Part shown: in pieces, positions 6,313 to 54,289 of the stretch
How the letters are laid out: the number at the start of each line of letters is the position of its first letter
Numbering within the stretch: position 1 is the stretch's first letter
Assembly (NCBI RefSeq): GCF_022008365.1
Contig: NZ_JAIRBA010000015.1
Location: forward strand, 1-64,000
Length of the DNA: 64,000 nt
Reading direction: 5' to 3'
DNA from: Aequorivita vitellina
GTDB lineage: Bacteria; Bacteroidota; Bacteroidia; Flavobacteriales; Flavobacteriaceae
Notes under the pieces: generated by a model
The model's database searches: none
What the model was told of the DNA's origin: nothing
Seen by the model: only the letters and a program-made list of their open reading frames with translations
Translations under genes and position numbers: made by a program

Positions 6313-6357
6313 GACTGACAAATATCATATTTGAACGGGTGAAATTCTTTAGTTTTA
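6313..6357 (+). promoter_or_regulatory. TGA-N6-TCA activator site and -7 element before the 6451 gene
   Basis: Imperfect inverted repeat GACTGA-CAAATA-TCATAT at 6313-6330 (centre 6321.5), followed by TAGTTTTA at 6350-6357. The spacing is 28.5 bp, one base shorter than in the other members of this set. The leader to the 6451 start would be about 87 nt, so this is the weakest member. Confidence 0.55.
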
Positions 6358-6450
6358 CTTCATCCTTTCATTATCGCAGAATTTTAAAAAAGAGAACCGT
6401 ATATTTACATACCGCTACTTTTAGCAAACGCCCTGCCTAATTTAATTTCT

Positions 6451-7083
6451 ATGAAAAGACTATTTACTTTTTTGGTTTTCACGGTTTTGTTTGCCAGTTG
6501 TTCCAGTAGCCGCTTGGTGGATGAATACATTAATACGGAAAGCCCAAATTTTCAGGCCAGTAAAGTTTTGGTGGTAGGCTTAACGCCAGACGGCGGTTTG
6601 CAGCGTCAATTTGAATACAGCCTTGTGAATGCCTTGGAAGCCGAAAATGTGACCGCTGTAAAAAGTGTTGATTATTTTGAAGTAGCAGCAGACCAAATAG
6701 ATCAGTCTGAAGAAAATCTTGCAAACCTTGAAAAACAACTGATAGATGCGGGTTTTGATGCAGTGCTTTTTTCAAAAGTTACGGGGCAGGAAAGCAAGGT
6801 TACCATTGTGCAGTCTTACCGGAATATCGCAAAATCGTTTGAGTCTTTCAGCGATTATTACAGTGAAAACCGACCTGCTTACCGCAGCGGACAAACTGAG
6901 GATTACCCAGTTTATAACACTGAAACTTCGCTATATTGTCTTTGTCCCGGTACGGAGCGTGATTTAATTTGGCGCGGAAAAATAGACATTGTTGATCCGC
7001 CACGGGCTGCAACAACAATTCGCGATTATGTGAAAACGCTGGTGCAAACGCTTAAGAAAAACGATCTTTTGATTGCGAAATAA
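6451..7083 (+). CDS. lipoprotein of unknown function
   Basis: A 210-residue protein with a lipobox signal peptide (FASC, Cys17). The mature part begins with a strand resembling KVLVVGLTPDGGLQRQFEYSL (pattern of a Rossmann-like or TolB-N-like alpha/beta domain), then charged helices and a C-terminal DYVKTLVQTLKK helix. I do not recognise a characterised family. It lies next to the nos locus, with a TGA-N6-TCA site about 125 bp upstream, so it may belong to the low-oxygen regulon. It converges on the universal stress gene with 12 bp between them. Confidence 0.75.
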   Translation: MKRLFTFLVFTVLFASCSSSRLVDEYINTESPNFQASKVLVVGLTPDGGLQRQFEYSLVNALEAENVTAVKSVDYFEVAADQIDQSEENLANLEKQLIDAGFDAVLFSKVTGQESKVTIVQSYRNIAKSFESFSDYYSENRPAYRSGQTEDYPVYNTETSLYCLCPGTERDLIWRGKIDIVDPPRAATTIRDYVKTLVQTLKKNDLLIAK

Positions 7084-7095
7084 TTCTGCAAAAAA

Positions 7096-7923
7096 CTACT
7101 CGTGAAGTACTAAAAGCGGTATACGCGAACTGTAATTTATTGCTGAAGTATCTGAACCAAAAATAAAACGGTCTATAAAACTTTTTCGTCTGGCAACTGT
7201 TGCGTGAAGCTGCACGGGTATAAGCTGTACAAAGGCGCTTACCGCTAGCGGAATGGGAATATTCATCAATTTGAAATCTTCACAGGTAACGTCTTTAAAA
7301 ACTTCTTTTATATGGTTTTGTTGAGGACTTACTTCCACATCTTCTTCAACTATATCTAGAATTTTTACAGCTGCTTTGTGCTTTTTAACAATGGCTAAAA
7401 CCACTTCGAAGGTTTTCTTTAAAACGTCGTTTTGATAGTTTAGTGATAGCAAAACCGAATCAATTTTTTCAAAAGAATACCCTTCAGGAATAACTATTAA
7501 CGGACAGTATACGTTTCGGATAATTTTTAGTGTATTGCTGCCAAATATAATTTCTTTGGCTCCCGTGGCACCATTGGTACCCATCACTATTAAATCAATT
7601 TTATGTTGAACTACAATCTGGTTGACGGCAGCTACAATATCATCAAAATCTATTTTAGGTACAAAAGTGAAATTTTCCTTTTCAGAAAATGATTCACAAA
7701 AAGTCACCATTTTTTTAAGCTTTTCTTTATTCTCTCTTAAAATACCTTCGTAAACCGAAGATCCCGGCTCACTAGAAAGCACTTCTGCGGTAATATAACC
7801 CGATGGTTTTTGCGTATTTAAAATATGAAATGTGCACGTTTCGCCTTCAAAAAACTTCAAGGCATACTTAATAGCATTTTTTGAATTTTCAGAAAAATCT
7901 GTAGGTAAGAGGATGTTTTTCAT
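7096..7923 (-). CDS. universal stress protein, tandem UspA domains
   Basis: A 275-residue protein with two UspA-like halves. The first carries the ATP-binding pattern G-x2-G-x9-G-S in GTNGATGAKEIIFGSN (about residues 115-130) and an early Asp (PTDFS). The open frame extends to 7941, but its -7 element covers 7939-7946, so transcription starts after that point; the ATG at 7923 (MKNILLPTDFS), which also matches the usual family N-terminus, is the better start. A TGA-N6-TCA site drives it divergently from the nos cluster. Usp proteins are common members of anaerobic regulons. Confidence 0.9.
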   Translation of the reverse strand: MKNILLPTDFSENSKNAIKYALKFFEGETCTFHILNTQKPSGYITAEVLSSEPGSSVYEGILRENKEKLKKMVTFCESFSEKENFTFVPKIDFDDIVAAVNQIVVQHKIDLIVMGTNGATGAKEIIFGSNTLKIIRNVYCPLIVIPEGYSFEKIDSVLLSLNYQNDVLKKTFEVVLAIVKKHKAAVKILDIVEEDVEVSPQQNHIKEVFKDVTCEDFKLMNIPIPLAVSAFVQLIPVQLHATVARRKSFIDRFIFGSDTSAINYSSRIPLLVLHE

Positions 7924-7938
7924 ATTCATAAATTTTCT

Positions 7939-7984
7939 CAAATGTACATTATCAGATTAAGTTTTAAAATGATTTGCATCATAA
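7939..7984 (-). promoter_or_regulatory. TGA-N6-TCA activator site and -7 element of the usp gene
   Basis: Inverted repeat AAATGA-TTTGCA-TCATAA at 7967-7984 (centre 7975.5). Reading the minus strand, a perfect Bacteroidota -7 element TACATTTG occupies 7946-7939, giving the 29.5-bp spacing shared by this set. The predicted transcript starts near 7933, which fixes the usp start at 7923 or 7929. Confidence 0.85.
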
Positions 7985-8077
7985 TTAGTCTTTCCTAAAA
8001 AATTAATACTTGTTAATTGGTAGTTTAAAATCTAAAGGCTTCAATGTTAAATATTTTTTAAGACCAAAAAGTCCTAT

Positions 8078-8123
8078 ATATGACGAAAATCATATTCTAT
8101 TTGCTGTCTTCACAGTAGTTTTG
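8078..8123 (+). promoter_or_regulatory. TGA-N6-TCA activator site and -7 element of the nos cluster
   Basis: Perfect inverted repeat ATATGA-CGAAAA-TCATAT at 8078-8095 (centre 8086.5), then a perfect -7 element TAGTTTTG at 8116-8123, 29.5 bp from the centre. The predicted start near 8130 places the site near -43, the class II position for CRP/FNR-family activators. Confidence 0.9.
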
Positions 8124-8147
8124 TCCTGTAAATTAATTTAAACAACT

Positions 8148-8651
8148 ATGAAAAACATAATGAAATCAATGGCTGCCCTATCAATTCTAATCTTGATGAG
8201 TTGCGGCGGAAAAGAAGAAAAAAAGAAAGACGGTATTCAAATTGGCCAAAAGCCAGCCGCCACTGAAACTCCAAAAGAAGCACCCGTTTCTGATGTAAAG
8301 CCATCACAAACAATTGACCTAACTAATAAGGGAATTGGGCCAATTAAAAGTGTTGAAATTGATGCCACCGTGGATAATGCTATGGCTGCGAAAGGTTCAG
8401 AAATTTTTAAATCTAAATGTATGGCTTGCCACAAACCCGACAAAAAGTTTATTGGTCCAGCACCAACAGGAATTATGGAAAGACGTACTCCAGAGTGGAT
8501 TATGAATATGATCTTAAACCCTGAAGAAATGACGCAAAAAGATCCGCTTGCAAAAGCCCTTTTAATGGAATTTAACGGTTCCCCAATGGCTAACCAACAC
8601 CTTACCGAGGAAGAAGCCAGACAAGTATTAGAATATTTTAGAACTCTGTAA
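8148..8651 (+). CDS. c-type cytochrome lipoprotein of the nos cluster
   Basis: A 167-residue lipoprotein (lipobox MSC, Cys19) with a charged, Pro-rich linker and one C-terminal heme c domain: CMACH at 91-95 and a probable axial Met at M147 in GSPMANQ. It is the first gene of the nos transcript and is a likely electron donor to NosZ, as monoheme cytochromes are in clade II nos clusters; that donor role is inference. It is followed by a stable hairpin before the fasciclin gene. Confidence 0.9.
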   Translation: MKNIMKSMAALSILILMSCGGKEEKKKDGIQIGQKPAATETPKEAPVSDVKPSQTIDLTNKGIGPIKSVEIDATVDNAMAAKGSEIFKSKCMACHKPDKKFIGPAPTGIMERRTPEWIMNMILNPEEMTQKDPLAKALLMEFNGSPMANQHLTEEEARQVLEYFRTL

Positions 8652-8672
8652 TATACTTAAACAACCAAACCG

Positions 8673-8701
8673 CCCTTGCAGGAAATTAATTTCTGCAAGG
8701 G
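8673..8701 (+). terminator. intra-cluster hairpin after the cytochrome gene
   Basis: Perfect 9-bp arms CCCTTGCAG (8673-8681) and CTGCAAGGG (8693-8701) with an AT-rich loop. No T-run follows, so it is more likely an mRNA-processing or stability element, or a weak attenuator, than a full terminator. Confidence 0.6.
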
Positions 8702-8719
8702 TTAAAAACCAAAACAAAA

Positions 8720-9295
8720 ATGAAAACAATCCTTAAACTTCTCTTTGTTTCAACTGCAATCCTGCTGTTTTCAGCTTGTAAAAATGAAACAACTACCGAA
8801 ACTGGAGCTACTGCAGAAAGTTCCACTACAAGCGATGTTCCTTCAAGTAACCAAGGACAGGCGTTTATTGAAGATGATGAGTCAGCACCAAACTTGCTTC
8901 AGATTGCAATTGGGTCACCAGACCATACCACCTTGGTAGCAGCCGTGCAAGCAGCGGGATTGGAAAACTCTCTAGTTAATGCTGGACCATTGATGGTTTT
9001 TGCACCCACCAATGCGGCCTTTGATGCCTTGCCAGCCGGAACTGTAGACGAATTGTTAAAGCCAGAAAACAAAGATAAGTTGGCTTACATTCTGAAACAC
9101 CACGTAACACCGGGTAACTATTCAAAAGATTTTTTGAAAAAATTCAAGAAAGTAGGACAGGCAAGTGGTGAAGATGCTACAGTGGAAGTAAACGGAGACA
9201 ACGTATTTGTTGGCGGTGCTAAAATTATTGCTAGCGTACCTGCAGGAAATGGAATTGTTCACGTAGTAGATAAAGTAATATTGCCAGCTAACTAA
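8720..9295 (+). CDS. fasciclin-domain lipoprotein of the nos cluster
   Basis: A 191-residue lipoprotein (lipobox FSAC, Cys20), with a Thr/Ser-rich linker and one fasciclin (FAS1) domain from about 55 to 190. The domain includes the hallmark segment LMVFAPTNAAFDALP, then LKHHVTPG and the C-terminal VVDKVILPAN. Fasciclin genes recur beside nosZ in Bacteroidota, but their role there is not established; adhesion or assembly are guesses. It sits 33 bp before nosZ. Confidence 0.92.
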   Translation: MKTILKLLFVSTAILLFSACKNETTTETGATAESSTTSDVPSSNQGQAFIEDDESAPNLLQIAIGSPDHTTLVAAVQAAGLENSLVNAGPLMVFAPTNAAFDALPAGTVDELLKPENKDKLAYILKHHVTPGNYSKDFLKKFKKVGQASGEDATVEVNGDNVFVGGAKIIASVPAGNGIVHVVDKVILPAN

Positions 9296-9328
9296 TTATA
9301 AATCATTTTTAATTTAAATAATAGAATA

Positions 9329-11296: not shown

Positions 11297-11352
11297 AAAA
11301 AGACGTTTTTAGTTGTGGAAATACTAGATTAGTGATTAATAGTATTTTCAGT

Positions 11353-11387
11353 AAAGACGGGGGTTGTTGATTTCCCCCGTCTTTTTT
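11353..11387 (+). terminator. rho-independent terminator after nosZ
   Basis: Arms AAAGACGGGGG (11353-11363) and CCCCCGTCTTT (11374-11384), followed by a T-run. It separates the highly expressed cytochrome-fasciclin-nosZ unit from the assembly genes. Confidence 0.92.
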
Positions 11388-12121: not shown

Positions 12122-12160
12122 TTAAAGCCAGAAGGGTAAAATATTTTAACTTTTACAATT

Positions 12161-15630: not shown

Positions 15631-15677
15631 TTTATGATTTTCGTCATAAAATAGAGAAATTGGATTCCGTTCCTTTA
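15631..15677 (+). promoter_or_regulatory. TGA-N6-TCA activator site and -7 element of the nitronate-monooxygenase-like gene
   Basis: Perfect 7-bp arms TTTATGA and TCATAAA with a 6-bp spacer (15631-15650, centre 15640.5). A weak -7 element TTCCTTTA lies at 15670-15677, exactly 29.5 bp away. A start near 15684 excludes the TTG at 15660 as translation start and supports ATG 15705. Confidence 0.8.
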
Positions 15678-15704
15678 CGGCTTTTCAATCCAAATTCCAT
15701 TCAA

Positions 15705-17507
15705 ATGCAGATTTCAAGCCCACACAGTTTTCATATTCCCGTAATGGGAATTGCTTTCACGATTGATTCGCCTATAAAAGTTGCTCATTTCGGGATAAAT
15801 TCTACCCTTTCCATTATTGAAGACAATTTAATAGAGGTAATGCGGAAATATTACTACCAACAAAACAACGAGACTTACGTACCAATTTCCCCAAAGGAAG
15901 CAGATTCAAGGGCGCGTCGCATAACAGACTACCTCAATTTAATGCAGCGCATTGTCGCTTCCAAAATGGAGAAACTGAAAACTTCTGCTTTTGAAACGGG
16001 TTCAGATATCGCAAAATATTTTGAAATGCTTCCCGATAGCAGTCTGCTGAAAGAAAAATATAACGAATGGTTTTCGCTTACGGATGCCACAGAAAAGGAA
16101 ACTGTTGAAAAACTGCTACGCGAAAGTCTTGTTCCCGGTTCCATCGAAGTTAATATTATGACTAAAGTGGACAAGGATCAATTAGATAAAAACAAACAAC
16201 CCATAGAAAATGGTTCGGATGCCGTAACTGCTTTAAAAGGATATGCAGACTGCGAGTTGCACAATTCCGCCGTGGTTCTTTCTGCAGGAATGAACCCGCG
16301 TTTGTACAATTATATGGAAAGATTTTCAGCCTTTGATGCGTATGAATTGGGCGGTTTTCATAAAAAAGTAATTATTAAGGTGAGCGATTATCGTTCTGCA
16401 TTGATTCAAGGAAAATATTTAGCGAAGAAGGGAATTTGGGTCAGTGAATTTAGAATTGAATCTGGCCTAAATTGTGGCGGTCACGTTTTTGCCACCCAAG
16501 GTTTGTTAATGGGACCAATTCTTCAAGAATTTAAAGAAAAAAGACAAGAATTACAGGATAGCCTTTTTGAACTTTACAATCCTGCAATTACGGCGAAAGG
16601 AAAGCCACGATTTGAAAAACCGCACCCAATACGAATAACAGTTCAAGGCGGAATTGGAACAAACGAAGAAGACAATTTATTACAAAACTATTATGAAGTT
16701 GACGGCACCGGTTGGGGTACACCGTTTTTGCTGTGTCCGGAAGCCACGACTGTAGATGAAAACACTTTACAACTATTGGCAAATTCTAAAGAAAATGATG
16801 TGGTGCGAAGTAAAGCCTCGCCGCTAGGAGTTGAATTCAATTACTTAAAAGGAACCACTGCCGAAAAAGAGCGTTTGGGAAGAATTAATAAAGATAAACC
16901 TGGAAGCCCTTGTACCGAAAAGCTGTTAGAATCAAATACGGAATTCACCAAAACGCCTATTTGTACAGCTTCCTCCAAATATCAAAAACTAAAATTGGAG
17001 CAGTTGAAAACTTTAAATATTTCGAAGAAAGAATACAATCAGCAAGTAGCCGATGTGTTGAGCAAGGAATGTCTTTGCATAGGTTTGAGCAATGCAGCCC
17101 CTGCAAGTTATGAAGTTCCATTTTTAAAAAAACTTACAGCCGTAACTATTTGTCCGGGACCGAACATTATAAATTTCTCAAAAACCACAAGCCTTTGCGA
17201 AATGACCGATCATATTTATGGACGAAATAATATTGTGCAAAATCCTAATAGAGCCTCAGTATTTATCACTGAGCTCAGACTTTATATAGATTTTTTGAAA
17301 AAAGAAATAGAACGCACCGCTTCACCAACTACGCGCGATTTTAAATCATGGGAAAAATTCAGCAAGAATCTTTTGGATGGTATTGAGCATTATCACAACC
17401 TGGTAGCAAATTATATTTTAGGTAATAGAATGCAATTTGAACAGGATTTGGAGGTTGCTAAAATAGAGGTTTTGAAGGTGCGGGAGGATCAGTTGGAGAT
17501 TGGGTAG
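15705..17507 (+). CDS. nitronate-monooxygenase-like FMN TIM-barrel protein, unknown role, nor/nos linked
   Basis: About 600 residues from ATG 15705; the frame opens at TTG 15660, but that codon lies upstream of the predicted transcript start. Counting from 15660, C272-GGH275 recalls the AGGH motif of nitronate monooxygenases, VQGGIG (328-333) the phosphate-binding AAGGI strand, and GTGWGTPFLLCPEA (349-362) the GTRFLA segment, in the right order. The C-terminal third is extra and holds several cysteines (around PICTAS, ECLCIG, TICPGP, SLCEM) that could bind a metal or Fe-S cluster. It lies between nos and nor behind a strong activator site. A broken copy of its 3' end lies at 24046-24231. FMN binding and a role in NO or nitro-compound chemistry are inference. 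Confidence 0.7.
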   Translation: MQISSPHSFHIPVMGIAFTIDSPIKVAHFGINSTLSIIEDNLIEVMRKYYYQQNNETYVPISPKEADSRARRITDYLNLMQRIVASKMEKLKTSAFETGSDIAKYFEMLPDSSLLKEKYNEWFSLTDATEKETVEKLLRESLVPGSIEVNIMTKVDKDQLDKNKQPIENGSDAVTALKGYADCELHNSAVVLSAGMNPRLYNYMERFSAFDAYELGGFHKKVIIKVSDYRSALIQGKYLAKKGIWVSEFRIESGLNCGGHVFATQGLLMGPILQEFKEKRQELQDSLFELYNPAITAKGKPRFEKPHPIRITVQGGIGTNEEDNLLQNYYEVDGTGWGTPFLLCPEATTVDENTLQLLANSKENDVVRSKASPLGVEFNYLKGTTAEKERLGRINKDKPGSPCTEKLLESNTEFTKTPICTASSKYQKLKLEQLKTLNISKKEYNQQVADVLSKECLCIGLSNAAPASYEVPFLKKLTAVTICPGPNIINFSKTTSLCEMTDHIYGRNNIVQNPNRASVFITELRLYIDFLKKEIERTASPTTRDFKSWEKFSKNLLDGIEHYHNLVANYILGNRMQFEQDLEVAKIEVLKVREDQLEIG

Positions 17508-18394: not shown

Positions 18395-18439
18395 TATGAT
18401 AACCGTCATACTAAATTTTAGCTAATTGTTTTTATTTCG
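18395..18439 (+). promoter_or_regulatory. TGA-N6-TCA activator site and -7 element of the nor operon
   Basis: TATGA-TAACCG-TCATA at 18395-18410 (centre 18402.5), with the -7-like TTATTTCG at 18432-18439, exactly 29.5 bp on. The -7 matches the consensus weakly, as expected for an activator-dependent promoter. Confidence 0.8.
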
Positions 18440-18485: not shown

Positions 18486-18944
18486 ATGCTATCCAAACAA
18501 CAAGCGCGGGCGTTTTTCTTGATAGGAACGTTCGTAACCTTTTTGATTTTTATTGGCCTCACCATTTATTCCTTCAGTGATGGGCAAGATCAAACCAACT
18601 ATGAAAACATTACTCCTCAAGTAGTGCGAGGAAAAGTAATCTGGGAAGAAAACAACTGTATGGGCTGCCATACTATTCTTGGTGAAGGTGCCTACTACGC
18701 GCCCGAACTTACAAAAGTTGTTGAACGAAGAGGCGAAGGCCTTATTAAAGCAATTCTTATGTCTCCCGTTCCGTGGGAACCAAACGGTCGTAAAATGGTG
18801 GCCTATGGCTTTTCTGCTGAAGAAGCTGATGACATGATAGCATTCTTTAACTGGATAGGCGAAATTGACCTAAACGGTTTTGACCGAATTGTATCGCCTT
18901 TAGCGAAAGACAAACAACTAATTAACTCCCAAACAGAAAATTAA
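18486..18944 (+). CDS. norC: nitric oxide reductase cytochrome c subunit
   Basis: A 152-residue membrane-anchored cytochrome: one N-terminal helix (about 9-30) and a heme c domain with CMGCH at 58-62 followed by TILGEGAYYAPELT, a typical NorC stretch, and an axial Met in GRKMVAYGF. It passes electrons to NorB. First gene of the nor operon, with a hairpin between it and norB. Confidence 0.95.
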   Translation: MLSKQQARAFFLIGTFVTFLIFIGLTIYSFSDGQDQTNYENITPQVVRGKVIWEENNCMGCHTILGEGAYYAPELTKVVERRGEGLIKAILMSPVPWEPNGRKMVAYGFSAEEADDMIAFFNWIGEIDLNGFDRIVSPLAKDKQLINSQTEN

Positions 18945-24247: not shown

Positions 24248-26302
24248 CTACCCAATCCGTACCCGCGCATCCACTCCAGTAATAGCCCGTTGCGTTCCAA
24301 TCAATGGGTTAATATCCATTTCAGTAATCTCTGGAGCTGCTTCCACCAACGCAGATAAACGTTGAATAATATCTATAAATATTTTTTCATTTGCACCTTT
24401 TTTCCCTCTGGCACCTTGGATTAGTTTATACCCTCTAAGCGAATGCACCATTTTTTCAGCTTCATTTTTGGAGATAGGACTTAATCGAGCTGATACGTCG
24501 TTGAGAACTTCAATGAAAATCCCACCAAGTCCGCAAAGAATTGTGTGGTTAAATCCGGGCTCTTTTATCACGCCCACAAACAATTCCAGCCCCACTATTT
24601 GAGGTTGCACCATAACTGCGGTGGCTGAATCAATTTTCATTAATATATCAAAAGTTTCAGCAGCTTCGTTTTTGTTGGCAATATTTAAAACTACACCTTG
24701 AGCATCACTTTTGTGAAGTGGACCAACAACTTTCATCACCACGGGAAAATCCATAGTTCCCAAAGCTTTCAGCAATTTTTCTTTTGAATTTTCTACAATT
24801 TCGTGAACTCGCGGAATTCCCGCTGCATCCAATAATTCGACAGTTTGATTAGGTAAAAGATATCCTTCGGAAGCAGCATCAATTACAGATCTAATTTTTT
24901 CGATATCAATTTTTGGAAGTGAAGTTTTATGAGGCTGAGGTTCGGACGTATTATAAACTTGAGCCAAGGCCTTTCCCAAGACCACTTCATCCGGAAAATG
25001 AATATGTCCTTTCTTTAAAAATGATTGAATTTCGCGCTGTGCGTTTACAACGGAAGGCAAAACAGGGAAAATGGGTTTGTTGCAAATTTCCAATTTTACA
25101 CTTAAAACATTGTAAACATTTTCAACGTTGAACAAGCCAGCACTTCCAAAAACCACGATCATTGCATCTATATTTTCGAATTTATGTTCGCAATAATCGA
25201 TGATAATGCCCAACTGTTCGGCAGTTCCCGTCGCTAAAAAATCTATAGGATTTGCAATAGAAGATCCGGGATATAAAAACGATTTCAACTTTTCGGCATC
25301 GGGTCCCGATATTTCGGGAACTTTAAGTCCGCCCTTCGAAAGTTGATCTGCCAACATAACAGCCGAGCCGCCCGCGTGGGTTATAATCGCAATATTTTTC
25401 CCTTTTAATTTTTTATAATTGAAGATCGCTGCAACACTCAACAATTGTTCGCGGCTGCTGCAATAAACAATTCCAGCTTTGTGAAACAGTGCGCGCACCG
25501 TCATATCGCTACTCGCAATAGCGCCTGTGTGCGAAGTTGCGGCACGGCTGCCTTCGGCGGTGCTTCCGGCTTTAATGGCAGCTATTTTCGCGCCTTTTTT
25601 TATGAGGGACGAAGCGTGTTTCAGTAATTTTTTAGGGTTTGAGATAGTTTCTAAATAAAGCAATTTTACCAATGAATCCGTTTCTGGATTGAAGTGAATA
25701 TCCATATATTCCAAAATATCTTCAACCGTGGTTTGCGCTGCATTTCCTGTTGAAAATACATTCGCAAACGAAACCCCCAAAGCCATTCCAGCTTCCATAA
25801 TAAAAACAGCGGTGGCACCGGAACCTGAAATTAAATCGCAACCTTTTGGATTAAATGGAGGAATAGGTGCTGTAAAAACGCCTTTATAACTTTCAGTAAT
25901 TACGCCAATGCAGTTTGGGCCAATTAAACAACCATCCACGCTGTTTACGGTTTCGGTAATTTCCTGTTCCCACAGTTTTCCTTGTTCGTCGCCTTCCCCA
26001 AAACCTGCAGAAATTATTATAAATGCTTTGGTGTTTTTTTCTTCTGCTAAGGTTTTAATAGTCGCTGGGCAATATTTTGCCGCAATGGCGAGAATGGCGA
26101 GTTCTGTTTCGGGAATTTCTACAACGGAAGCATAACTTTTTATGCCCTGTATTTTTTCCTCTTTTGGATTTACAACGCTCATCTTTCCTTTATAACCTCC
26201 CGAAAGAATATTTTTCAGCATGTTACCTCCAGGTTTTTTAATGTCGTTGGAAGCTCCTATTACAACTATACTCTTGGGTTTAAGCAATTCTTCATTCACC
26301 AT
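24248..26302 (-). CDS. acyl-CoA synthetase (ADP-forming), acetate-CoA ligase family
   Basis: A 684-residue enzyme: CoA-binding Rossmann domain (about 5-130, SIVVIGASND), succinyl-CoA-ligase-like domain with GPNCIGVI and the phosphohistidine segment TSHTGAIASSD, and a C-terminal ATP-grasp domain (about 465-684). It converts acyl-CoA, ADP and phosphate to acid, CoA and ATP, or the reverse. There is no acetyltransferase domain, unlike Pat-type fusions. A TGA-N6-TCA site with correct spacing precedes it, suggesting ATP formation from acetyl- or other acyl-CoA when oxygen is low; the substrate is not settled. Confidence 0.88.
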   Translation of the reverse strand: MVNEELLKPKSIVVIGASNDIKKPGGNMLKNILSGGYKGKMSVVNPKEEKIQGIKSYASVVEIPETELAILAIAAKYCPATIKTLAEEKNTKAFIIISAGFGEGDEQGKLWEQEITETVNSVDGCLIGPNCIGVITESYKGVFTAPIPPFNPKGCDLISGSGATAVFIMEAGMALGVSFANVFSTGNAAQTTVEDILEYMDIHFNPETDSLVKLLYLETISNPKKLLKHASSLIKKGAKIAAIKAGSTAEGSRAATSHTGAIASSDMTVRALFHKAGIVYCSSREQLLSVAAIFNYKKLKGKNIAIITHAGGSAVMLADQLSKGGLKVPEISGPDAEKLKSFLYPGSSIANPIDFLATGTAEQLGIIIDYCEHKFENIDAMIVVFGSAGLFNVENVYNVLSVKLEICNKPIFPVLPSVVNAQREIQSFLKKGHIHFPDEVVLGKALAQVYNTSEPQPHKTSLPKIDIEKIRSVIDAASEGYLLPNQTVELLDAAGIPRVHEIVENSKEKLLKALGTMDFPVVMKVVGPLHKSDAQGVVLNIANKNEAAETFDILMKIDSATAVMVQPQIVGLELFVGVIKEPGFNHTILCGLGGIFIEVLNDVSARLSPISKNEAEKMVHSLRGYKLIQGARGKKGANEKIFIDIIQRLSALVEAAPEITEMDINPLIGTQRAITGVDARVRIG

Positions 26303-26321: not shown

Positions 26322-26366
26322 TAAATTTAAAACTAGTTTAATAAGGTAGTTATGATAAAAATCATA
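26322..26366 (-). promoter_or_regulatory. TGA-N6-TCA activator site and -7 element of the acyl-CoA synthetase gene
   Basis: TATGA-TAAAAA-TCATA at 26351-26366 (centre 26358.5). On the minus strand TAAATTTA occupies 26329-26322, exactly 29.5 bp away. The leader to the start at 26302 would be short. Confidence 0.8.
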
Positions 26367-26430: not shown

Positions 26431-26475
26431 TATGATTTTTGTCATATATTGATCAGTCTTTTTGAAATAATTTTA
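26431..26475 (+). promoter_or_regulatory. TGA-N6-TCA activator site and -7 element of the second norC/norB-like pair
   Basis: TATGA-TTTTTG-TCATA at 26431-26446 (centre 26438.5), followed by TAATTTTA at 26468-26475, exactly 29.5 bp on. Predicted transcription start near 26482, 15 nt before the ATG at 26497. Confidence 0.88.
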
Positions 26476-31478: not shown

Positions 31479-31521
31479 TGATCAATATCATTTATAAAAG
31501 GTAATAGATTTCCAATCTTTG
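31479..31521 (+). promoter_or_regulatory. TGA-N6-TCA activator site and -7 element of the CoA-transferase gene
   Basis: TGA-TCAATA-TCA at 31479-31490 (centre 31484.5). The -7 element AATCTTTG at 31514-31521 is exactly 29.5 bp on. The arms match only at the core, but the spacing is kept. Start predicted near 31528, gene at 31539. Confidence 0.72.
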
Positions 31522-36903: not shown

Positions 36904-36970
36904 ATTTCTGATAAAATTGTCATTATATGATTAAAGTCATAATTAGTTCTTTTTATTCTACTGAAATTTG
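36904..36970 (+). promoter_or_regulatory. overlapping Rrf2-type and TGA-N6-TCA sites before ric
   Basis: A third, half-degenerate Rrf2-type operator (ATTTCTGATAA at 36904-36914, then TTGTCA) overlaps by 2 bp the activator site ATATGA-TTAAAG-TCATAA (36925-36942, centre 36933.5). The -7 element GAAATTTG is at 36963-36970, exactly 29.5 bp from the activator centre. This allows dual control by NO/Fe-S status and by the low-oxygen activator. Confidence 0.75.
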
Positions 36971-39117: not shown

Positions 39118-39163
39118 TACTGATAAATATCATATTGAATCGGCGAAGGTTTTGTAATATTTG
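39118..39163 (+). promoter_or_regulatory. TGA-N6-TCA activator site and -7 element of ccoI
   Basis: TACTGA-TAAATA-TCATAT at 39118-39135 (centre 39126.5); -7 element AATATTTG at 39156-39163, exactly 29.5 bp on. Start near 39170, 24 nt before the ATG of ccoI. Confidence 0.83.
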
Positions 39164-39193
39164 CACACGGTATAATGAGCAAATTTTAGATTG

Positions 39194-41605
39194 ATGGTAA
39201 ACTGTTTCCATTGTGGAGATGCGTGTCTTGACGTTGAGATTACGCACGATGAAAAGTCATTTTGTTGCCATGGCTGCAAAACGGTTTACGATATTCTGCA
39301 CGATAACGACCTAAGTTATTATTACGATCTTGAAAAAACGCCCGGTACTTCTCCTCAAGAAATTGCAGGCAAGTACGATTTTTTAGACAACCAAACAATC
39401 GTTGAAAAACTACTGGAATTTAATGACGGCAATATGCAAATTGTTTCGTTTGTTATTCCTTCAATTCACTGCAGCAGTTGTATTTGGATACTCGAAAACC
39501 TCAATAAACTCAGTGCTTCCGTAAAATCGTCTCAAGTTAATTTTCCTGAAAAAACAATTCGCATTTCTTTTTCTTCGGAAGAAAATTCGCTTAAAAATTT
39601 AGTTATTCTTTTAAGCAGAATTGGTTACGAGCCCTATATTTCGCTGGACGATTCCAATAAAAAGGAAAAGAACATTGACCGAAGTTTAATTTACAAATTA
39701 ACCATTGCCGGCTTTGCTTTTGGAAATATAATGTTCCTTTCGCTCCCCGAATATTTTGAAACGTCTGAGTTTTGGCTGGATCAATTTAAACCCTTTTTTC
39801 GCTGGTTAATGTTTGCATTTTCACTACCCGTGGTATTTTATTCGGCGAGTGGTTATTTTACTTCGGCCTATAAAGGGCTGCGTTCCAAAATCCTGAATAT
39901 CGATGTGCCCATTGCTTTGGGTGTTGCCGTTCTTTTTATTAGAAGTACGCTCGATATTATGATGGATTGGGGCACAGGTTTTTTCGATAGCCTTTCGGGC
40001 TTACTTTTCTTTTTGCTTCTCGGGAAATTTTTTCAGCAAAAAACATACAGCTACCTTTCTTTTGAACGCGATTACAAATCGTATTTTCCAATTGCCGTTA
40101 CGCGACTTTTTAAAAATGAAGCAGGAAAAACCGTTGAAGAGCAAGCAGAGGTTTACACAGTTGAAAAAGGCGATAGACTATTAATTCGGAATAACGAAAT
40201 TCTTCCCGTTGATGCAATTCTTATAAAGGGAAATGCGCTAATAGATTACAGTTTTGTTACTGGCGAAGCAGAACCCATTACTAAACAAAGTGGCGATAAA
40301 CTCTTTGCCGGTGGAAGACAGCAAGCGGGAATAGTAGAAGTAGAAGTTTTAAAACCCGTTTCGCAAAGTTATTTAACCCAGCTTTGGAGTAATGATGTTT
40401 TCAGCAAAGACAAGTCGAGTATTTTTGAATCACTGACTGATAGTATTAGCAAGCGCTTCACTTTAACGCTGCTTACTATCGCTTTTGTTGCCACTATTTT
40501 CTGGTTGGTTGTAGATCCATCAAAAGCATTTAACGTGTTTACGGCGGTGCTCATTGTGGCCTGTCCGTGCGCAATTGCTTTAGCCGCGCCCTTTACTTTG
40601 GGGAACGTACTGCGAATATTCGGAACGGAAAACCTGTATTTAAAAGAGGCGTCGGTGATTGAACAAATGGCGAAGTTAGACACCGTTGTTTTCGATAAAA
40701 CCGGAACGCTTACCACCAATCAAAAAAACCTGATTACTTACGAAGGCGTGGCGCTTACTTTAGAAGAAAAACAATTGTTAACCAATACGCTTCGTGCATC
40801 CAGCCATCCGCTGAGTCGTTCGTTGTATAGCATTTTAGACAAAAATGATATTCAAACTTTAGATGAATTTGAAGAAGAAGTAGGGAAGGGGATTTCGGCG
40901 AGTTTTAATGATAATTCCATAAAAGTTGGCTCGTATGAATTTGTTGGTTCTTATGATGAAACATTAACTGAAATAAAAAATAAAACAGCCGTTCACATCA
41001 GTACGAACAAGGCTTACAAAGGCTGTTATATTTTCAATAGTGAATACCGAAGCGGTGTTGCCGAAGTTTTTGAAAATTTAGGAAAAGATAAAGAGGTAAT
41101 CGTTCTTTCCGGCGATAACGAAGGCGAGCGCGAACGTTTGGAATCTATGCTGCCAAAGGGCGTGAAGCTGCATTTCAACCAAAAACCCGATGACAAACTA
41201 AACTTTATAAAATCGTTACAAAAACAAGGCAAACGGGTTTTGATGATTGGCGATGGATTAAATGATGCGGGAGCACTAAAGCAGAGCGATGTTGGTTTTG
41301 TTATTTCGGAAAACACAAATGTGTTCTCTCCGGCTTGCGATGGTATTTTGGAAGCTTCAAATTTCAATAAAATCGCCGATTATTTAAATTTTTCTAAAAG
41401 AGGAGTACAGATAATTAAGTGGGCTTTTATACTGTCGTTATTTTATAACTTGATAGGGATTTCATTTGCGGTTACTGGTAACTTACTTCCCGTAGTGGCT
41501 GCAATTTTGATGCCCTTGAGTTCTATAAGTATTGTAATTTTTACCACGATTGCCACCCAGTATATTGGGAAGAAATTAAGAATGAATATAAATAAGAAAA
41601 ATTGA
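39194..41605 (+). CDS. ccoI: copper-transporting P-type ATPase for cbb3 assembly
   Basis: An 803-residue P1B-type ATPase (TTG ATG at 39191/39194; the ATG is preferred). It has an N-terminal Cys-rich metal domain (CFHCGDACLD, FCCHGCKTVYD), a second metal domain with HCSSCIWIL, eight helices, the CPC motif (CPCAIALAAP), phosphorylation site DKTGTLTT and hinge GDGLNDAGAL. This is the CcoI/FixI type that exports copper for the CuB centre. It has its own activator-dependent promoter. Confidence 0.95.
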   Translation: MVNCFHCGDACLDVEITHDEKSFCCHGCKTVYDILHDNDLSYYYDLEKTPGTSPQEIAGKYDFLDNQTIVEKLLEFNDGNMQIVSFVIPSIHCSSCIWILENLNKLSASVKSSQVNFPEKTIRISFSSEENSLKNLVILLSRIGYEPYISLDDSNKKEKNIDRSLIYKLTIAGFAFGNIMFLSLPEYFETSEFWLDQFKPFFRWLMFAFSLPVVFYSASGYFTSAYKGLRSKILNIDVPIALGVAVLFIRSTLDIMMDWGTGFFDSLSGLLFFLLLGKFFQQKTYSYLSFERDYKSYFPIAVTRLFKNEAGKTVEEQAEVYTVEKGDRLLIRNNEILPVDAILIKGNALIDYSFVTGEAEPITKQSGDKLFAGGRQQAGIVEVEVLKPVSQSYLTQLWSNDVFSKDKSSIFESLTDSISKRFTLTLLTIAFVATIFWLVVDPSKAFNVFTAVLIVACPCAIALAAPFTLGNVLRIFGTENLYLKEASVIEQMAKLDTVVFDKTGTLTTNQKNLITYEGVALTLEEKQLLTNTLRASSHPLSRSLYSILDKNDIQTLDEFEEEVGKGISASFNDNSIKVGSYEFVGSYDETLTEIKNKTAVHISTNKAYKGCYIFNSEYRSGVAEVFENLGKDKEVIVLSGDNEGERERLESMLPKGVKLHFNQKPDDKLNFIKSLQKQGKRVLMIGDGLNDAGALKQSDVGFVISENTNVFSPACDGILEASNFNKIADYLNFSKRGVQIIKWAFILSLFYNLIGISFAVTGNLLPVVAAILMPLSSISIVIFTTIATQYIGKKLRMNINKKN

Positions 41606-41645
41606 CGAATATCATACTTTTATGCTGGTATCAATAATATTTTTG
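41603..41645 (+). promoter_or_regulatory. TGA-N6-TCA activator site and -7 element of ccoS-ccoNO
   Basis: TTGA-CGAATA-TCATA with its core at 41603-41614 (centre 41608.5), starting in the ccoI stop codon, and a perfect -7 element TATTTTTG at 41638-41645, exactly 29.5 bp on. Start near 41652 with a leader of about 11 nt. Confidence 0.87.
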
Positions 41646-49189: not shown

Positions 49190-49198
49190 ATTAATTTT

Positions 49199-49972
49199 TT
49201 AATTTTCAATATCCTTTGCGCAGCGGAAACCTAAGTTTTGTGAGCTATAACGGGCTTTCATGCTTCCTCGGAATGCAAAGCGCATAAAGGCGGCATAATT
49301 CATTAAATCTGATGCGCCTATGGCTGCACTTCCACAGAAAAGATTGGCGTCTTTATCTACATCTTTTCTAGATTCTCCCGAAATAAGTACTGCGTTAAAA
49401 TCCTGTGTCCACTCCCAGACTAAACCGTGAAGGTCATAAATTCCCCAATAATTTTTAAAGGTAGATCCTACGGGTTTATTAAATGTTTTTGGGGTTTCGT
49501 ACCAATTTAAAATGTACTGGTTGTACGTTTTTATTTTACGAGCATCTGGCACGTTTTCATCTGCCATTGCCGCGTATTCCCATTCATCAATTGTGGGTAA
49601 TCGCTTGCCTTGGCATTCGCAGTAATTTTTTGCGGCAAACCAGGAAACGTTATTTACGGGTGCATCTTTGAGTCCAGTAAAAGTTGTATCGTCTGTCCAT
49701 TTTGCCAAATAACTTTTATCTGCAAATAAACTTTTTACATTACTCTTTTTCCATTTCGGATTTTCCTGTACGAACTTTAAATAATCGGCATTGGTAACGG
49801 GAAGCGCATCCATTAAGAATGGCGCTACTTTCACAGTTTTTCCCTCAGCGCCGTAGAGCGGTAAATAAACACCGCCTTCTACCAAGACCATTTTGTTGTT
49901 TTGGGCATAAAGCTCACAAAAAATTGAAAAGACTAGGAAAAGGGCGGTGCTATAATATTTCATTTTAAACAA
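49199..49972 (-). CDS. nirV: SUMF1/formylglycine-generating-type protein (NirV-like)
   Basis: A 257-residue exported protein (signal peptide about 1-23) of the SUMF1 fold: LMDALPVTNADYLKFVQENP, PVNNVSWFAAKNYCECQGKRLPTIDEWEYAA, WEWTQDFN and a GFRCAK ending. NirV proteins of this family accompany nirK in many denitrifiers; their activity is unclear. It lies 5 bp after nirK. The gene name is by analogy. Confidence 0.88.
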   Translation of the reverse strand: MFKMKYYSTALFLVFSIFCELYAQNNKMVLVEGGVYLPLYGAEGKTVKVAPFLMDALPVTNADYLKFVQENPKWKKSNVKSLFADKSYLAKWTDDTTFTGLKDAPVNNVSWFAAKNYCECQGKRLPTIDEWEYAAMADENVPDARKIKTYNQYILNWYETPKTFNKPVGSTFKNYWGIYDLHGLVWEWTQDFNAVLISGESRKDVDKDANLFCGSAAIGASDLMNYAAFMRFAFRGSMKARYSSQNLGFRCAKDIEN

Positions 49973-49977
49973 TTGTT

Positions 49978-51444
49978 TTATTTGTTTCTAACGGCTTCTA
50001 CCATTTCAGGGGTTACATCTGTTTTATTGTTGCCCCAGCTGTTATACACATAAGTTAAAACGTTAGCTACGTCTTGATCGCTAAGTGCTTGGGCGGTCAT
50101 CACACTGTTGTATTTTTTACCGTTTACAGTTATTTCACCAGATTTACCGTGTAGTACAATATCTATGGCACGGTTAACATCGGCATTTAGGTAATCTGCA
50201 TTTGCCAAAGGCGGGAATGCACCTTCAATTCCTTGACCATTTGCTTGGTGACAGGCAACACAAGTAGCCATATATTTGTCTTTACCAAACTTCATTTTTT
50301 CTTCAAAACTTAAAGCCTTAACTTCTTCTTTTGGTGCATTTCTATCTAGACTGGGCATGGATTGTATAACACTACCTTCAGGCAGGTAAATACCGTCGTG
50401 GATTTCGCCAGTAAATACTTTTTCGTTTTCTTCACCCTCTACTTTTAACATAGCCAAAGCTCCTTTGTTAAAAGCTCTAAAAATAGAATGGTCTACTAAA
50501 ATGAAAGTACCGGGAACGTCCACGAGAAACTCAACAATAGCTGCGCCTCCAGCGGGAATCATGGTAGTTTGTACATTGTCATTTATTAAATCGCCACCTT
50601 CAACATGTACTCGGTCAAAAATTTCACCAATTACGTGGAAGGATGAAACTAGGTTTGGCCCACCATTACCAACAAAGAGACGAACTGTTTCACCTACTTT
50701 TGCAGTAATTGCGTTATCGCCTGTCATTGCTCCAACGTGACCGTTAAATACAACGTAGTCTGCGTTTTCATCAATGGCTTTTTGCATATCGAAGGCTTGT
50801 AGGCCTCGCTCACCATATTTGCCTTCAGTGTAAAAATCGCCTTGCATTATGTAATATTCTTTATCTACAGGCGCTAAACCACCTTCTGGTTCAACTAAAA
50901 TTAAGCCGTACATTCCATTGGCAATGTGCATCCCAACTGGTGCAGTTGCACAGTGGTAAACATACAGACCAGGATTAAGTACTTTAAAAGAGAATACTTT
51001 TTCGTGTCCAGGTGCCACAAAAGAAGATTCGGCTCCACCACCGGGACCATTCACTGCGTGTAGGTCAATGTTGTGTGGCAGTTTATTATCTGGGTGATTT
51101 TTAAGGTGAAATTCTATTTCATCGCCAACGCGAGTTCTTATAAAACTTCCTGGAACCGTTCCACCAAAAGTCCAATAAATATATTTTACTCCACTAACCA
51201 TTTCGCCTTCGCGCTCTTGGATTTCAAGATCGACGATTAGTTTTTTGGCCATACGTTTTCCAACCGGCGTTGGCACGAATGGGGGAGAAGTGAGCTCCGC
51301 AATCATTTCTTGATTTACGGGAATATCTACCGCGTTTTTGTATTTTTTACTGGATTGGTCATTTACACAACCCGAAAGTAATGCTATAGCTCCTAAGCCA
51401 ATAAGCATTTTGGTAAAGAAGAATTTTTTGATCGTTGATTTCAT
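49978..51444 (-). CDS. nirK: copper nitrite reductase with C-terminal cytochrome c domain
   Basis: A 488-residue lipoprotein (lipobox LSGC, Cys26). Two cupredoxin domains carry the type 1 copper ligands H124, C165, H173 and M178, type 2 ligands H129, H164 and the His of SSFHVIG, and the catalytic Asp D127. A fused class I cytochrome c follows, with C395-VA-C398-H399. It reduces nitrite to NO, with the heme domain as built-in electron relay. It is the second gene of an operon behind the barrel protein. Confidence 0.97.
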
Positions 51445-51466
51445 AGTTGGAATTTTAAATTATAAT

Positions 51467-52750
51467 TTATTTATTGGTTGTTTCTGTATTTTTTGGTTGC
51501 CAAGTGAAAAGAACAGGGTCAATGGTAACCATTAACCACGCCCAGTTGTTCGTATTATTATCAAAGTTATTCTTCACATATTCAATCCCTTCTGTGACCA
51601 AAAACTGAGAATAACCTGCTTGAATACTTGTAAATTCACTTAATTTAAAGGAAGTTACTAAATCTATTTCAAAACCCAAATTATTTGAATTGTTATTCAT
51701 TATTTCGGCAGCACTAAAAAACTGATGAAACGCAGCTTGAACATTAGATTTTTTATTGAATGAATATTTCACCTTTCCATACAAATCTGCCAAACCAACG
51801 TTGTTCAAATGATTACCAACATAAAAATAATCCATAAATCCATTAAATTTATGGTTGGTGCCGTAAAGGGGGTTAAAAGCTTTGTTTTTTCCGTTTGCCG
51901 GAGTGCCGTAATCATTGCCACTTTGTATTTCACCCCCTAATCCCAAACTAAGATTTTCATTTACGGAATATAGCGCCTCTAATGATAATAAATAGGCTTC
52001 CAGCGAATTATCCATAATGTCTTTCCCAAATTGATAATACAGGTTTGAGCTAAAGTTGAAGTCGGCTATTCCAGCCTTTAAATGAAAACCTGCAGTTTGG
52101 CTGTATCTTGTTTCATTTTTAGATGGGTCAATTTCGTCTATAAATTGCAACCCATTGTTCAAAAATAGAAAGCTTGCATTCAGTTTTTTCCAATCTTTAT
52201 GAAGCCATACATACTGCAAACTTTTATAGGTGTTTCGGGTTAAAACGTTTCCTGTTAATGCTTCTTTGTCTTGATTGTAAGCAGCGGCAACGTGCAATTT
52301 AATTGCGTTGGATTCGTATTTTAAAATTGCTGCATCGTGACTTCTACCTTGCTGCGCCCAACCTACATTTCCTAAAAATCGTTGATCGTCATAAACAATT
52401 TCTTGACGGCCAATTTTTAATGAAAGATCGGAAACTAATAATATCTCACCCCAAGCTTGGTGAAGCGAGAACCCATTTTCGTCGGCAATGTTTAGCTGTG
52501 GCACATCGCCCCAAACCCGAACGTCTTGCGGACTTAAATAAAAATGAAGCTTTTCAGTTTTATAATCAAAATTTAGTCTTGTTCGCTGCGAAATAAAGGC
52601 AGCGGGATCTGTATTATCTGGGAAAAGTGTTTTGTAACCGTGACGGTATTCAAAACGAGGTCTAAGTTCGGCATCAACTGTAAATTGTGCATTCGTAGAA
52701 GTAAGACTTAAAAACAGTAAGAAAGAAAATATGGTTCTTAATAAATTCAT
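51467..52750 (-). CDS. outer-membrane beta-barrel protein (alginate-export-like)
   Basis: A 427-residue protein with a signal peptide (about 1-21) and a chain of amphipathic strands through the C-terminus (for example TRLNFDYKTEKLHFYLSPQ and WGEILLVSDLSLKIGRQE). The pattern matches the alginate-export/porin-like barrels of Bacteroidota. It is first in the nirK operon, 22 bp before nirK, so it may admit nitrite or another anion; that is inference from position. Confidence 0.85.
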   Translation of the reverse strand: MNLLRTIFSFLLFLSLTSTNAQFTVDAELRPRFEYRHGYKTLFPDNTDPAAFISQRTRLNFDYKTEKLHFYLSPQDVRVWGDVPQLNIADENGFSLHQAWGEILLVSDLSLKIGRQEIVYDDQRFLGNVGWAQQGRSHDAAILKYESNAIKLHVAAAYNQDKEALTGNVLTRNTYKSLQYVWLHKDWKKLNASFLFLNNGLQFIDEIDPSKNETRYSQTAGFHLKAGIADFNFSSNLYYQFGKDIMDNSLEAYLLSLEALYSVNENLSLGLGGEIQSGNDYGTPANGKNKAFNPLYGTNHKFNGFMDYFYVGNHLNNVGLADLYGKVKYSFNKKSNVQAAFHQFFSAAEIMNNNSNNLGFEIDLVTSFKLSEFTSIQAGYSQFLVTEGIEYVKNNFDNNTNNWAWLMVTIDPVLFTWQPKNTETTNK

Positions 52751-52770
52751 TTTGTAATAAAATTCTAGTA

Positions 52771-52814
52771 CAAAATTCGAATTTTTGATTGTTTCATAAT
52801 ATGACTATTGTCAT
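52771..52814 (-). promoter_or_regulatory. TGA-N6-TCA activator site and -7 element of the nirK operon
   Basis: ATGA-CTATTG-TCAT at 52801-52814 (centre 52807.5). On the minus strand GAATTTTG occupies 52778-52771, exactly 29.5 bp away. Start near 52764, 14 nt before the barrel gene. Confidence 0.85.
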
Positions 52815-52858
52815 TTATGAAAAAATTTTTAAGTTTTTTTTGATTAGAAATGAACTAA

Positions 52859-54223
52859 TTAAACCGTCATAGAAAACAGTTGCGTTTCGGGTTGATTGCG
52901 TTGTAATAGTAAATCGAAAGCCATACACACATTGCGCACGTATGGACGGCCCTTTTCGGTGATTTTAAGTTTTGTGGCATTAATTTCAATTAAACCATCG
53001 GCCTCCATTTCTGCTAATTTTTCAAGAACTTCGGGCAATTCTTTAAACTGAAGCGATTCTTCTTCCCACGAAGTTTCTAGTTTGCACATCATATTTAAAA
53101 TGTGTTTGCGTATCAGCAAATCTTCTTCATTTAAAATATGTCCGCGATACACTGGGATGATATTTTGGCTCACCAAATCTTGGTATTCTTCAACATTTTT
53201 CACATTTTGGCCGAAGCTATACCAGCTGTCGCCAATGGCCGAAACACCCAGCCCAAGCATAAACTGCGTTTTGCTATCGGTATAACCCATAAAGTTGCGG
53301 TGTAAGGTTTTTTCTTCCACAGCCTTGTAGAGACTATCACTTTTAAGTGCAAAATGATCCATCCCGATTTCAATATATCCAGCCTCTTCCAACATTTTTT
53401 TTCCGGTTTCGTACATCTCCCGTTTTTCGGCTGCACTGGGTAAATCTGCTTCTTTAAAGCCGCGCTGTCCGTTGCCTTTAATCCAAGGTACGTGTGCATA
53501 GCTGTAAAATGCAATGCGGTCTGGCATTAACTCTTTGGTTTTTTCAATAGAATAAATTACGTGTTCTATTTTCTGAAATGGAAGACCAAAAATAAGGTCG
53601 TGCCCCACAGAAGTATAACCAATTTCGCGTGCTTTATCGGTTACGCGTTTCACATTTACAAACGGTTGCAGCCTGTGGATAGCGAGCTGCACGGTGGGAT
53701 TGTAATCTTGAACGCCGTAACTTACCCTGGTAAAACCACAATCAAAAAGTGTTTGTAAATGCGCTTCGGAAGTATTGTTGGGATGGCCCTCAAAACTAAA
53801 GGACGGGTTTTCGGCAATAGTTGCATCGCGAAAAATCCCATTTAATAACAACTTTAAATTTTCGGCAGAAAAAAAAGTGGGTGTGCCACCACCAAGGTGT
53901 AATTCTTTAATTATGGGGCGTTCGGAAAATAATTCTAAATAAAGCCGCCACTCATTTAAAACAGACTCCAAATAAGGCGTTTCTACATTGTGGTTTTTGG
54001 TGATGCGTTTGTTGCAACCGCAAAAAGTGCAAAGACTTTCGCAAAAAGGAAGGTGGATATAAAGACTAATACCTTCTTCGGTATTGCTTTCCGAAAAACT
54101 TTTAACGACGCCTTTTTTCCACTCGGTCAATGAGAAATTATCATTTTTCCAATAAGGAACCGTGGGATAACTCGTATATCGCGGACCGGCAACGTTGTAT
54201 TTTGAAACTAAAGTGCTTTGCAT
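52859..54223 (-). CDS. hemN: oxygen-independent coproporphyrinogen III dehydrogenase
   Basis: A 454-residue radical SAM enzyme with the cluster motif C61-x3-C65-x2-C68 plus C70 (CESLCTFCGC), the SAM-binding GGGTP segment and the HemN C-terminal domain. It makes protoporphyrinogen IX without oxygen, needed for the many hemes of this respiratory system. It has its own activator site and a 108-bp gap to the barrel gene. Confidence 0.96.
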   Translation of the reverse strand: MQSTLVSKYNVAGPRYTSYPTVPYWKNDNFSLTEWKKGVVKSFSESNTEEGISLYIHLPFCESLCTFCGCNKRITKNHNVETPYLESVLNEWRLYLELFSERPIIKELHLGGGTPTFFSAENLKLLLNGIFRDATIAENPSFSFEGHPNNTSEAHLQTLFDCGFTRVSYGVQDYNPTVQLAIHRLQPFVNVKRVTDKAREIGYTSVGHDLIFGLPFQKIEHVIYSIEKTKELMPDRIAFYSYAHVPWIKGNGQRGFKEADLPSAAEKREMYETGKKMLEEAGYIEIGMDHFALKSDSLYKAVEEKTLHRNFMGYTDSKTQFMLGLGVSAIGDSWYSFGQNVKNVEEYQDLVSQNIIPVYRGHILNEEDLLIRKHILNMMCKLETSWEEESLQFKELPEVLEKLAEMEADGLIEINATKLKITEKGRPYVRNVCMAFDLLLQRNQPETQLFSMTV

Positions 54224-54243
54224 GGCTTATAAAATTGAGGTGT

Positions 54244-54289
54244 CAAAAGTACTTTTTGAGCTTTTATTATAAAATGATATATGTCAGTT
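54244..54289 (-). promoter_or_regulatory. TGA-N6-TCA activator site and -7 element of hemN
   Basis: AAATGA-TATATG-TCAGTT at 54272-54289 (centre 54280.5). On the minus strand a perfect -7 element TACTTTTG occupies 54251-54244, exactly 29.5 bp away. Confidence 0.88.

Follow-up and report, generated by a model that had tools for sequence, protein, structure and literature searches.

Which regulator reads the inverted repeats that precede denitrification and respiratory genes in a flavobacterium? The window analyzed here, a stretch of 64,000 nt from contig NZ_JAIRBA010000015.1 of Aequorivita vitellina (GCF_022008365.1), contains thirteen such palindromes, with core TGA-N6-TCA. A previous, sequence-only reading had assigned them to a CRP/FNR-type regulon, in keeping with activation from about −41.5. 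Our analysis indicates that these sites are part of a real regulon of this class. We consider it fairly probable that this regulon is genome-wide, that its main activator is REC-CRP (a receiver domain fused to a CRP-type output) paired with a FixL-like kinase, that the stand-alone FNR was lost and that a DNR-like protein provides a second input.

Palindromes and their spacing to the −7 element

The genome (G000) is a 3.63-Mb draft of 197 contigs, 99.79% complete, in which the window lies on contig C66. Spacing is given as N, the number of bp between the palindrome and the −7 element; at N23, the −7 element starts 29.5 bp from the palindrome centre. The element was scored on TAnnTTTG as matches out of 6.

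All thirteen palindromes are present where they had been placed. Twelve of them are fully intergenic, as claimed for all; the palindrome at 41603-41614 shares bases with the ccoI stop codon (open reading frame (ORF) 39191-41605). TGA-N6-TCA occurs 33 times in the window, compared to 16.95 ± 3.98 times in shuffled sequences. The tighter consensus TGAY-N4-RTCA, common to all thirteen, occurs 14 times, whereas 200 shuffled windows average 3.1 copies and never exceed 10; the only copy beyond the thirteen is found at 62348.

At N23, ten of the thirteen palindromes have a −7 element scoring at least 5/6. At 69 other spacings, the mean number of such elements is 0.94 (maximum 4), and 200 dinucleotide shuffles give a mean of 0.35 (maximum 3) at N23. 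The score is a perfect 6/6 at four sites (7970−, 8081+, 41603+ and 54275−) and 5/6 at another six. Two further sites, 15635+ and 18397+, carry weak 4/6 elements at N23, making the earlier count of twelve sites at exactly 29.5 bp slightly generous. The thirteenth, 6316+, indeed lies at 28.5 bp, with 5/6 at N22 and 2/6 at N23. Summed over the thirteen sites, the −7 score amounts to 64 at N23 and to 41 at the runner-up, N22 (spacings 8-49).

A scan of the whole genome, suggested as a check by the sequence-only reading, reveals the N23 peak outside the window as well: for gaps of 8-38 bp (31 spacings), 14 of the 49 palindrome/−7 pairs are at N23 (Poisson P = 3e-11). With one mismatch allowed, there are 33 N23 matches genome-wide, ten of them in the window, versus seven for the backward pattern. 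Among 17 of the 23 out-of-window matches that were inspected, nine have a start codon 21-30 bp past the −7 box and at least three are chance-like, being located inside ORFs. Conservation was assessed across 247 genomes from the phylum (the panel), of which 61 belong to the same class and 27 to the same family. Summed over the 27 same-family genomes, 252 exact site matches are found versus six for the backward control.

We attach almost no credence to the notion that these sites are AT-rich chance palindromes beside chance −7 elements. It draws on the AT-richness of the genome (window 37% GC), on the two weak −7 matches among the thirteen and on the 23 matches that the backward pattern gives genome-wide over all 31 spacings. 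Against it stand the shuffles, the spacing spectra, the backward controls and the cross-genome conservation, which bear out the earlier claim of a pattern beyond chance, and the 23-bp spacing peak is observed in independent genomes.

The available text of a transcription start site map of Flavobacterium psychrophilum (PMC9723704) places the TAnnTTTG −7 box at −12 to −5. Given this position and the spacing N23, the palindrome centre falls at −41.5. In E. coli, −41.5 is the commonest activating FNR position, and of the 23 promoters that FNR activates directly and whose start is known, 19 carry a site at −41.5 ± 4, according to the parts available of PMC3688515. The window thus presents what characterizes class II CRP/FNR promoters, namely a dyad at fixed spacing with its centre near −41.5, at ten of thirteen sites with scores of at least 5/6. 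The N23 spacing together with the box position in F. psychrophilum makes the class II assignment the best reading, and we conclude that the thirteen sites belong to a real class II CRP/FNR-type regulon with classical promoter geometry. In the same Flavobacterium study, oxygen limitation induces cbb3 and haem synthesis; its main text does not contain the words FNR or CRP (PMC9723704).

A CRP/FNR-type response regulator and its PAS kinase

The regulator gene had been placed outside the window. In line with this, no CRP/FNR gene is seen in the window, and the seven CRP/FNR homologues of the genome are all encoded on other contigs. Regulator and signal, given as unknown in the sequence-only reading, can now be narrowed down to named candidates: REC-CRP with its FixL-like kinase, and a DNR-like protein.

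REC-CRP (G000:C125:16452-17504) has 350 residues and is composed of a receiver (4-116), a cyclic nucleotide monophosphate (cNMP)-binding fold (161-246) and a Crp helix-turn-helix (HTH; 282-349). Matches above cut-off to PF00027 and PF13545 place it in the CRP/FNR superfamily, and its PF00072 receiver, with Asp and partner kinase, identifies it as a response regulator. The gene of a PAS kinase (C125:17506-18741) precedes that of REC-CRP, the two being one base apart. Both the phospho-Asp and the E..R pair of the recognition helix are kept in 40/40 REC-CRP sequences. The cysteines of an iron-sulfur (Fe-S) FNR are lacking: the single Cys of REC-CRP is C51, within the receiver, and none of the other six CRP homologues of the genome has an N-terminal CxxC. 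REC-CRP is 84% identical to its counterpart in Aequorivita todarodis. A structural model of an 84% identical orthologue (L271) comprises a receiver, a helix and a CRP fold (mean predicted local distance difference test (pLDDT) 83.5, predicted template modelling score (pTM) 0.41), and its best solved matches in Foldseek are CRP and GlxR, with FNR lower (target TM ~0.5).

Thirteen solved chains match the PAS part of the kinase at E < 1e-10: those of FixL, those of DosP, and two entries labelled haem PAS sensor and YddU that we take to be DosP. The proximal haem His and the FixL Arg align with those of the solved chains, and the His is kept in 35 of the 37 best PAS matches. Contig C125 additionally carries six universal stress protein (usp) genes, one ribosome-hibernation-type gene and five N23 sites scoring at least 5/6.

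REC-CRP orthologues (E ≤ 1e-40) occur in 38 of the 247 panel genomes, all within the 61 same-class genomes; the 80 closest named relatives include Aequorivita, Aquimarina, Arenibacter, Maribacter, Chitinophaga and Mucilaginibacter. Across the 790 kb of sequence surrounding 40 REC-CRP orthologues, the N23 arrangement is found 68 times, in 24 of the 40 loci. Spacings other than 23 and 45 are found zero to five times each (mean 1.06), and N45 11 times. Eight of the 11 N45 matches are tandem sites 22 bp apart with the proximal member at N23, an arrangement that suggests side-by-side dimers two helical turns apart.

Gene order was compared in 120 of 121 loci, comprising our own, 39 from the panel and 80 from named relatives (with possible overlap between the latter two; L101 was dropped as no ATG ORF was parsed). 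The kinase adjoins REC-CRP in 112 of the 120. A site (N23; N45 in one case) lies just downstream of REC-CRP in 66/95 loci with a co-oriented next gene or a contig end, versus 0/25 with an opposed next gene (P = 4e-11). The tree was built from 24 of 25 chosen REC-CRP loci, 28 of 30 FNR loci and, for the DNR-like protein, our own locus and 17 of 20 others. The CRP half of REC-CRP forms one clade (99/99), apart from the stand-alone FNR and DNR-like clades; support for the node uniting it with FNR is weak (93/87), and one further paralogue, L146, is positioned inside the FNR clade.

Two promoter arrangements near these genes deserve mention. Tandem TGA-N6-TCA sites (N45 + N23) are located 19-39 bp past REC-CRP in L087, L088, L091 and L115 (family f3) and in L103, L109 and L111, which are from the same family as A. 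vitellina. Where the gene of the FixL-like kinase and that of a 134-aa protein diverge (L022:18741-18790), one palindrome is flanked by an N23 box on one strand and an N25 box on the other; the N25 box ends 4 bp before the kinase ATG, a possible bidirectional, near-leaderless promoter.

Probable loss of FNR and the candidate regulators

Stand-alone cysteine-bearing FNR (orthologue threshold >230 bits) is found in 22 of the 27 same-family genomes and is absent from G000, G053, G088, G130 and G234. As none of the seven CRP/FNR homologues in the A. vitellina draft genome is an FNR orthologue, stand-alone FNR was set aside as regulator here. In all 22 FNR-bearing genomes the gene lies within ~5 kb of ccoN. 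There is none at the cco locus of the window, and in FNR-less G088 it is REC-CRP that is found ~5 kb from ccoN. A cbb3 oxidase is encoded in 25 of the 27 same-family genomes. The operator of the ccoS/ccoN promoter is kept in 24 of the 25 ccoN-bearing genomes (23 at N23, one at N24; none in G198), including 3/3 FNR-less genomes with ccoN. Likewise, the nos promoter operator (at least 5/6) is present in 12/12 same-family genomes with a full nosZ, this genome included. At the thresholds used, FNR and the DNR-like protein are both absent from G130, yet this genome carries sites at nos, at usp and downstream of REC-CRP, the one homologue there whose Crp HTH is complete and of the E..R type.

We infer DNA binding and activation by REC-CRP, as well as the haem and the oxygen and nitric oxide (NO) signals, in the following scheme. 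At low oxygen, the adjacent FixL-like haem-PAS kinase would phosphorylate REC-CRP, and the phosphorylated form would be the main activator of the low-oxygen/denitrification regulon. A CRP/FNR-family dimer on TGAY-N4-RTCA at −41.5 would take the place of a −33 element and recruit RNA polymerase. The lineage would have lost the stand-alone cysteine-bearing FNR kept by most same-family relatives while the operators stayed, and the DNR-like protein encoded on contig C33 would share some of them (nos, nor, nir) and add the NO input.

Several observations weigh against this scheme. In 16 of the 40 REC-CRP loci there is no N23 site within ~9.5 kb, and the number of sites does not clearly follow REC-CRP presence beyond the same family. 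The FixL Arg is kept in 23 of the 37 best PAS matches, and a search with the entire kinase also finds a LOV photoreceptor-FixL chimera (4gcz) over the PAS region; a haem in the kinase PAS is consequently not certain. The association of REC-CRP with FNR absence is weak (5/5 FNR-less versus 11/22 FNR-bearing same-family genomes, P = 0.054), and since the genome is a draft of many contigs, the FNR gene could be missing from the assembly. Moreover, all 11 same-family genomes with FNR and without REC-CRP still have the site, so the site alone does not identify its binder. Of the 30 nos loci that were read, 24 belong to other families, and only two of these 24 have an N23 site within 1.5 kb (G168 and G192); nos control by this operator is hence not general in the phylum. 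Finally, the truncated CRP homologues L017 and L019 of this genome keep the E..R helix.

This last point also speaks for another CRP-like protein of the genome (the truncated L017, L019 and L021 type, or L018) as reader of the site, as does the exact TGA-N6-TCA N23 match adjoining both L017 (C118) and L021 (C140). We nevertheless hold this to be quite improbable: L018 is without the Glu of the recognition helix, the site next to L021 does not fit TGAY-N4-RTCA, many of the 16 cNMP-domain matches in G202 are short paralogues, and no link of the four proteins to respiratory genes was seen, their neighbourhoods not having been systematically examined. Less improbable, although still unlikely in our view, is activation of the denitrification sites, or of all sites, by the DNR-like C33 protein (L024:9165-9752) via NO, with REC-CRP limited to the usp/ribosome-hibernation cluster. 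The best solved relative of this protein is DNR (3dkw, E = 2e-13), the E..R pair is present in its recognition helix (VETVIR), and its gene is near truncated globins (named from sequence alone). Its orthologue and nosZ are within 10 kb of each other in 11 of the 16 panel genomes having the orthologue and a full nosZ, with the gene directly upstream of nos in G146 and G190, and 20 DNR-like neighbourhoods contain 11 N24 and nine N23 sites. On the other hand, six same-family genomes without the protein keep the nos site (G103, G118, G130, G134, G182 and G198), cbb3 sites are independent of its presence, and in this genome its gene is not beside nos (C33 versus C66). As site-rich genomes lack it (G103, G134, G182 and G198), the DNR-like protein was set aside as sole regulator. 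REC-CRP with its FixL-like kinase remains our preferred main activator; the DNR-like protein may share operators with it. The thirteen sites may accordingly not be one regulon, in that REC-CRP and the DNR-like protein could both recognize a common site, like ANR and DNR in Pseudomonas.

The base preceding TGA was considered as a mark separating the two regulators: it is C in 31 and A in 21 of 59 sites at same-family REC-CRP loci, and A in 14/20 at DNR-like loci. This is suggestive only, and window sites were not assigned by flank because the DNR-like set is dominated by one promoter. Eleven of the 20 DNR-like loci have an N24 site next to the gene (L119-L121, L124-L128, L132, L136 and L137). 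Where ORFs were read, the divergent gene encodes a 95-aa protein (L120) or is truncated-globin-like (L119).

Comparison with known systems

The promoters share with E. coli FNR class II promoters the TGA half-site dyad at −41.5, anaerobic respiratory targets and a CRP-fold output. They differ in having the Bacteroidota −7 box, in a proposed activator that is a response regulator without the FNR cysteines, and in a half-site flank that is often A or C, not the T of the FNR half-site consensus TTGAT. Stand-alone CxxC FNR of Flavobacteriaceae relatives (L138-L141 type) closely resembles REC-CRP in its recognition helix (GTATESCIRLLSDF versus GIATESLIRTLSDF, 11/14) and in the same cbb3 operator; unlike REC-CRP, it has an N-terminal CxxC and further cysteines, for which an Fe-S cluster is assumed, has no receiver and belongs to a separate clade. 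CxxC and further cysteines are kept in the flavobacterial FNR-like proteins L138-L141 and L168-L188; Cys at 29 is absent in seven of them (L175-L181), so their cluster ligands may differ from those of E. coli FNR. Among solved structures, DNR of Pseudomonas aeruginosa is nearest to the C33 protein, and the genes of C33 orthologues are often linked to nos. The C33 protein has zero cysteines and is likened to DNR by sequence and nos linkage only, its haem/NO response being putative.

With FixLJ-FixK of Alphaproteobacteria, the system has in common a FixL-like PAS kinase, a cysteine-poor FNR-like output and the targets cco, hemN, nos and nirK. FixJ consists of a receiver plus a LuxR-type HTH and activates fixK. 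Here, in contrast, receiver and FNR-like output are fused in one protein, so there is no separate FixJ step, and the REC-CRP region includes usp and ribosome-hibernation genes. REC-CRP appears to have arisen independently within Bacteroidota, parallel to the replacement of FnrN by FixLJ-FixK on FnrN sites proposed for Caulobacterales in the available text of PMC4999443. Whether, in some Bacteroidota, a haem-PAS kinase and a fused REC-FNR took over the unchanged operators of a lost FNR, compressing FixL-FixJ-FixK into two proteins, is in our judgement evenly balanced. The part that looks new is that a FixL-type kinase and a fused response regulator have probably replaced FNR; the promoter geometry is ordinary. 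In the open-access literature searched, no REC-CRP regulator or such regulon is described in Bacteroidota, and in the available text of PMC8510549 the CRP/FNR homologues of flavobacteria are interpreted as MalR-like carbon regulators. Oxygen and NO control seems little described in this phylum, though full nosZ genes of this type occur in 85 of the 247 panel genomes. The present analysis provides a defined operator, a rule for its spacing, a pair of candidate regulators and a list of genes.

Putative target genes and further sites

From left to right, the first window site (TGACAAATATCA with −7 element TAGTTTTA, 6316..6357, +) is upstream of a lipoprotein-like gene at 6451. Those at 7939..7981 (−, TACATTTG) and 8081..8123 (+, TAGTTTTG) are upstream of a usp gene (7096-7941) and of the nos operon (cytochrome c 8148, nosZ 9329), respectively. 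The two sites with weak −7 elements are 15635..15677 (+, TTCCTTTA), upstream of ORF 15660-17507 (likely ATG ~15705), and 18397..18439 (+, TTATTTCG), upstream of a norC-like cytochrome gene at 18486. Next come 26322..26364 (−, TAAATTTA), preceding an acyl-CoA synthetase gene (24248-26302), 26433..26475 (+, TAATTTTA), preceding a second norC-like/norB-like pair (26497), 31479..31521 (+, AATCTTTG), preceding a CoA transferase gene (31539), and 36928..36970 (+, GAAATTTG), preceding ric (FeS repair; 37003). The gene for a ccoI-type metal ATPase (39191) follows the site at 39121..39163 (+, AATATTTG), and ccoS/ccoNO (ccoNO fusion gene 41924) the one at 41603..41645 (+, TATTTTTG). The last two sites, 52771..52813 (−, GAATTTTG) and 54244..54286 (−, TACTTTTG), are upstream of a porin-like gene (51467-52750) with nirK (49978-51444) and of hemN (52859-54223).

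Outside the window, new candidate regulon members are proline dehydrogenase, phosphate acetyltransferase and pyridine-nucleotide reductase (family assignments) and the genes behind the five C125-region sites. An exact N23 site between the truncated CRP-like L017 and a TolC-like gene, the latter named from sequence (L007, C118:33982-34024), is possibly the target of a different regulator. The annotation of ORF 15660-17507 (615 aa) as nitronate-monooxygenase-like is not upheld by Pfam or NCBIfam, neither of which gives a match. Proteins with the same start (..SFHIPVMGIAFTIDSP..) are encoded near nos in G103 and G068, where a site is found upstream as well.

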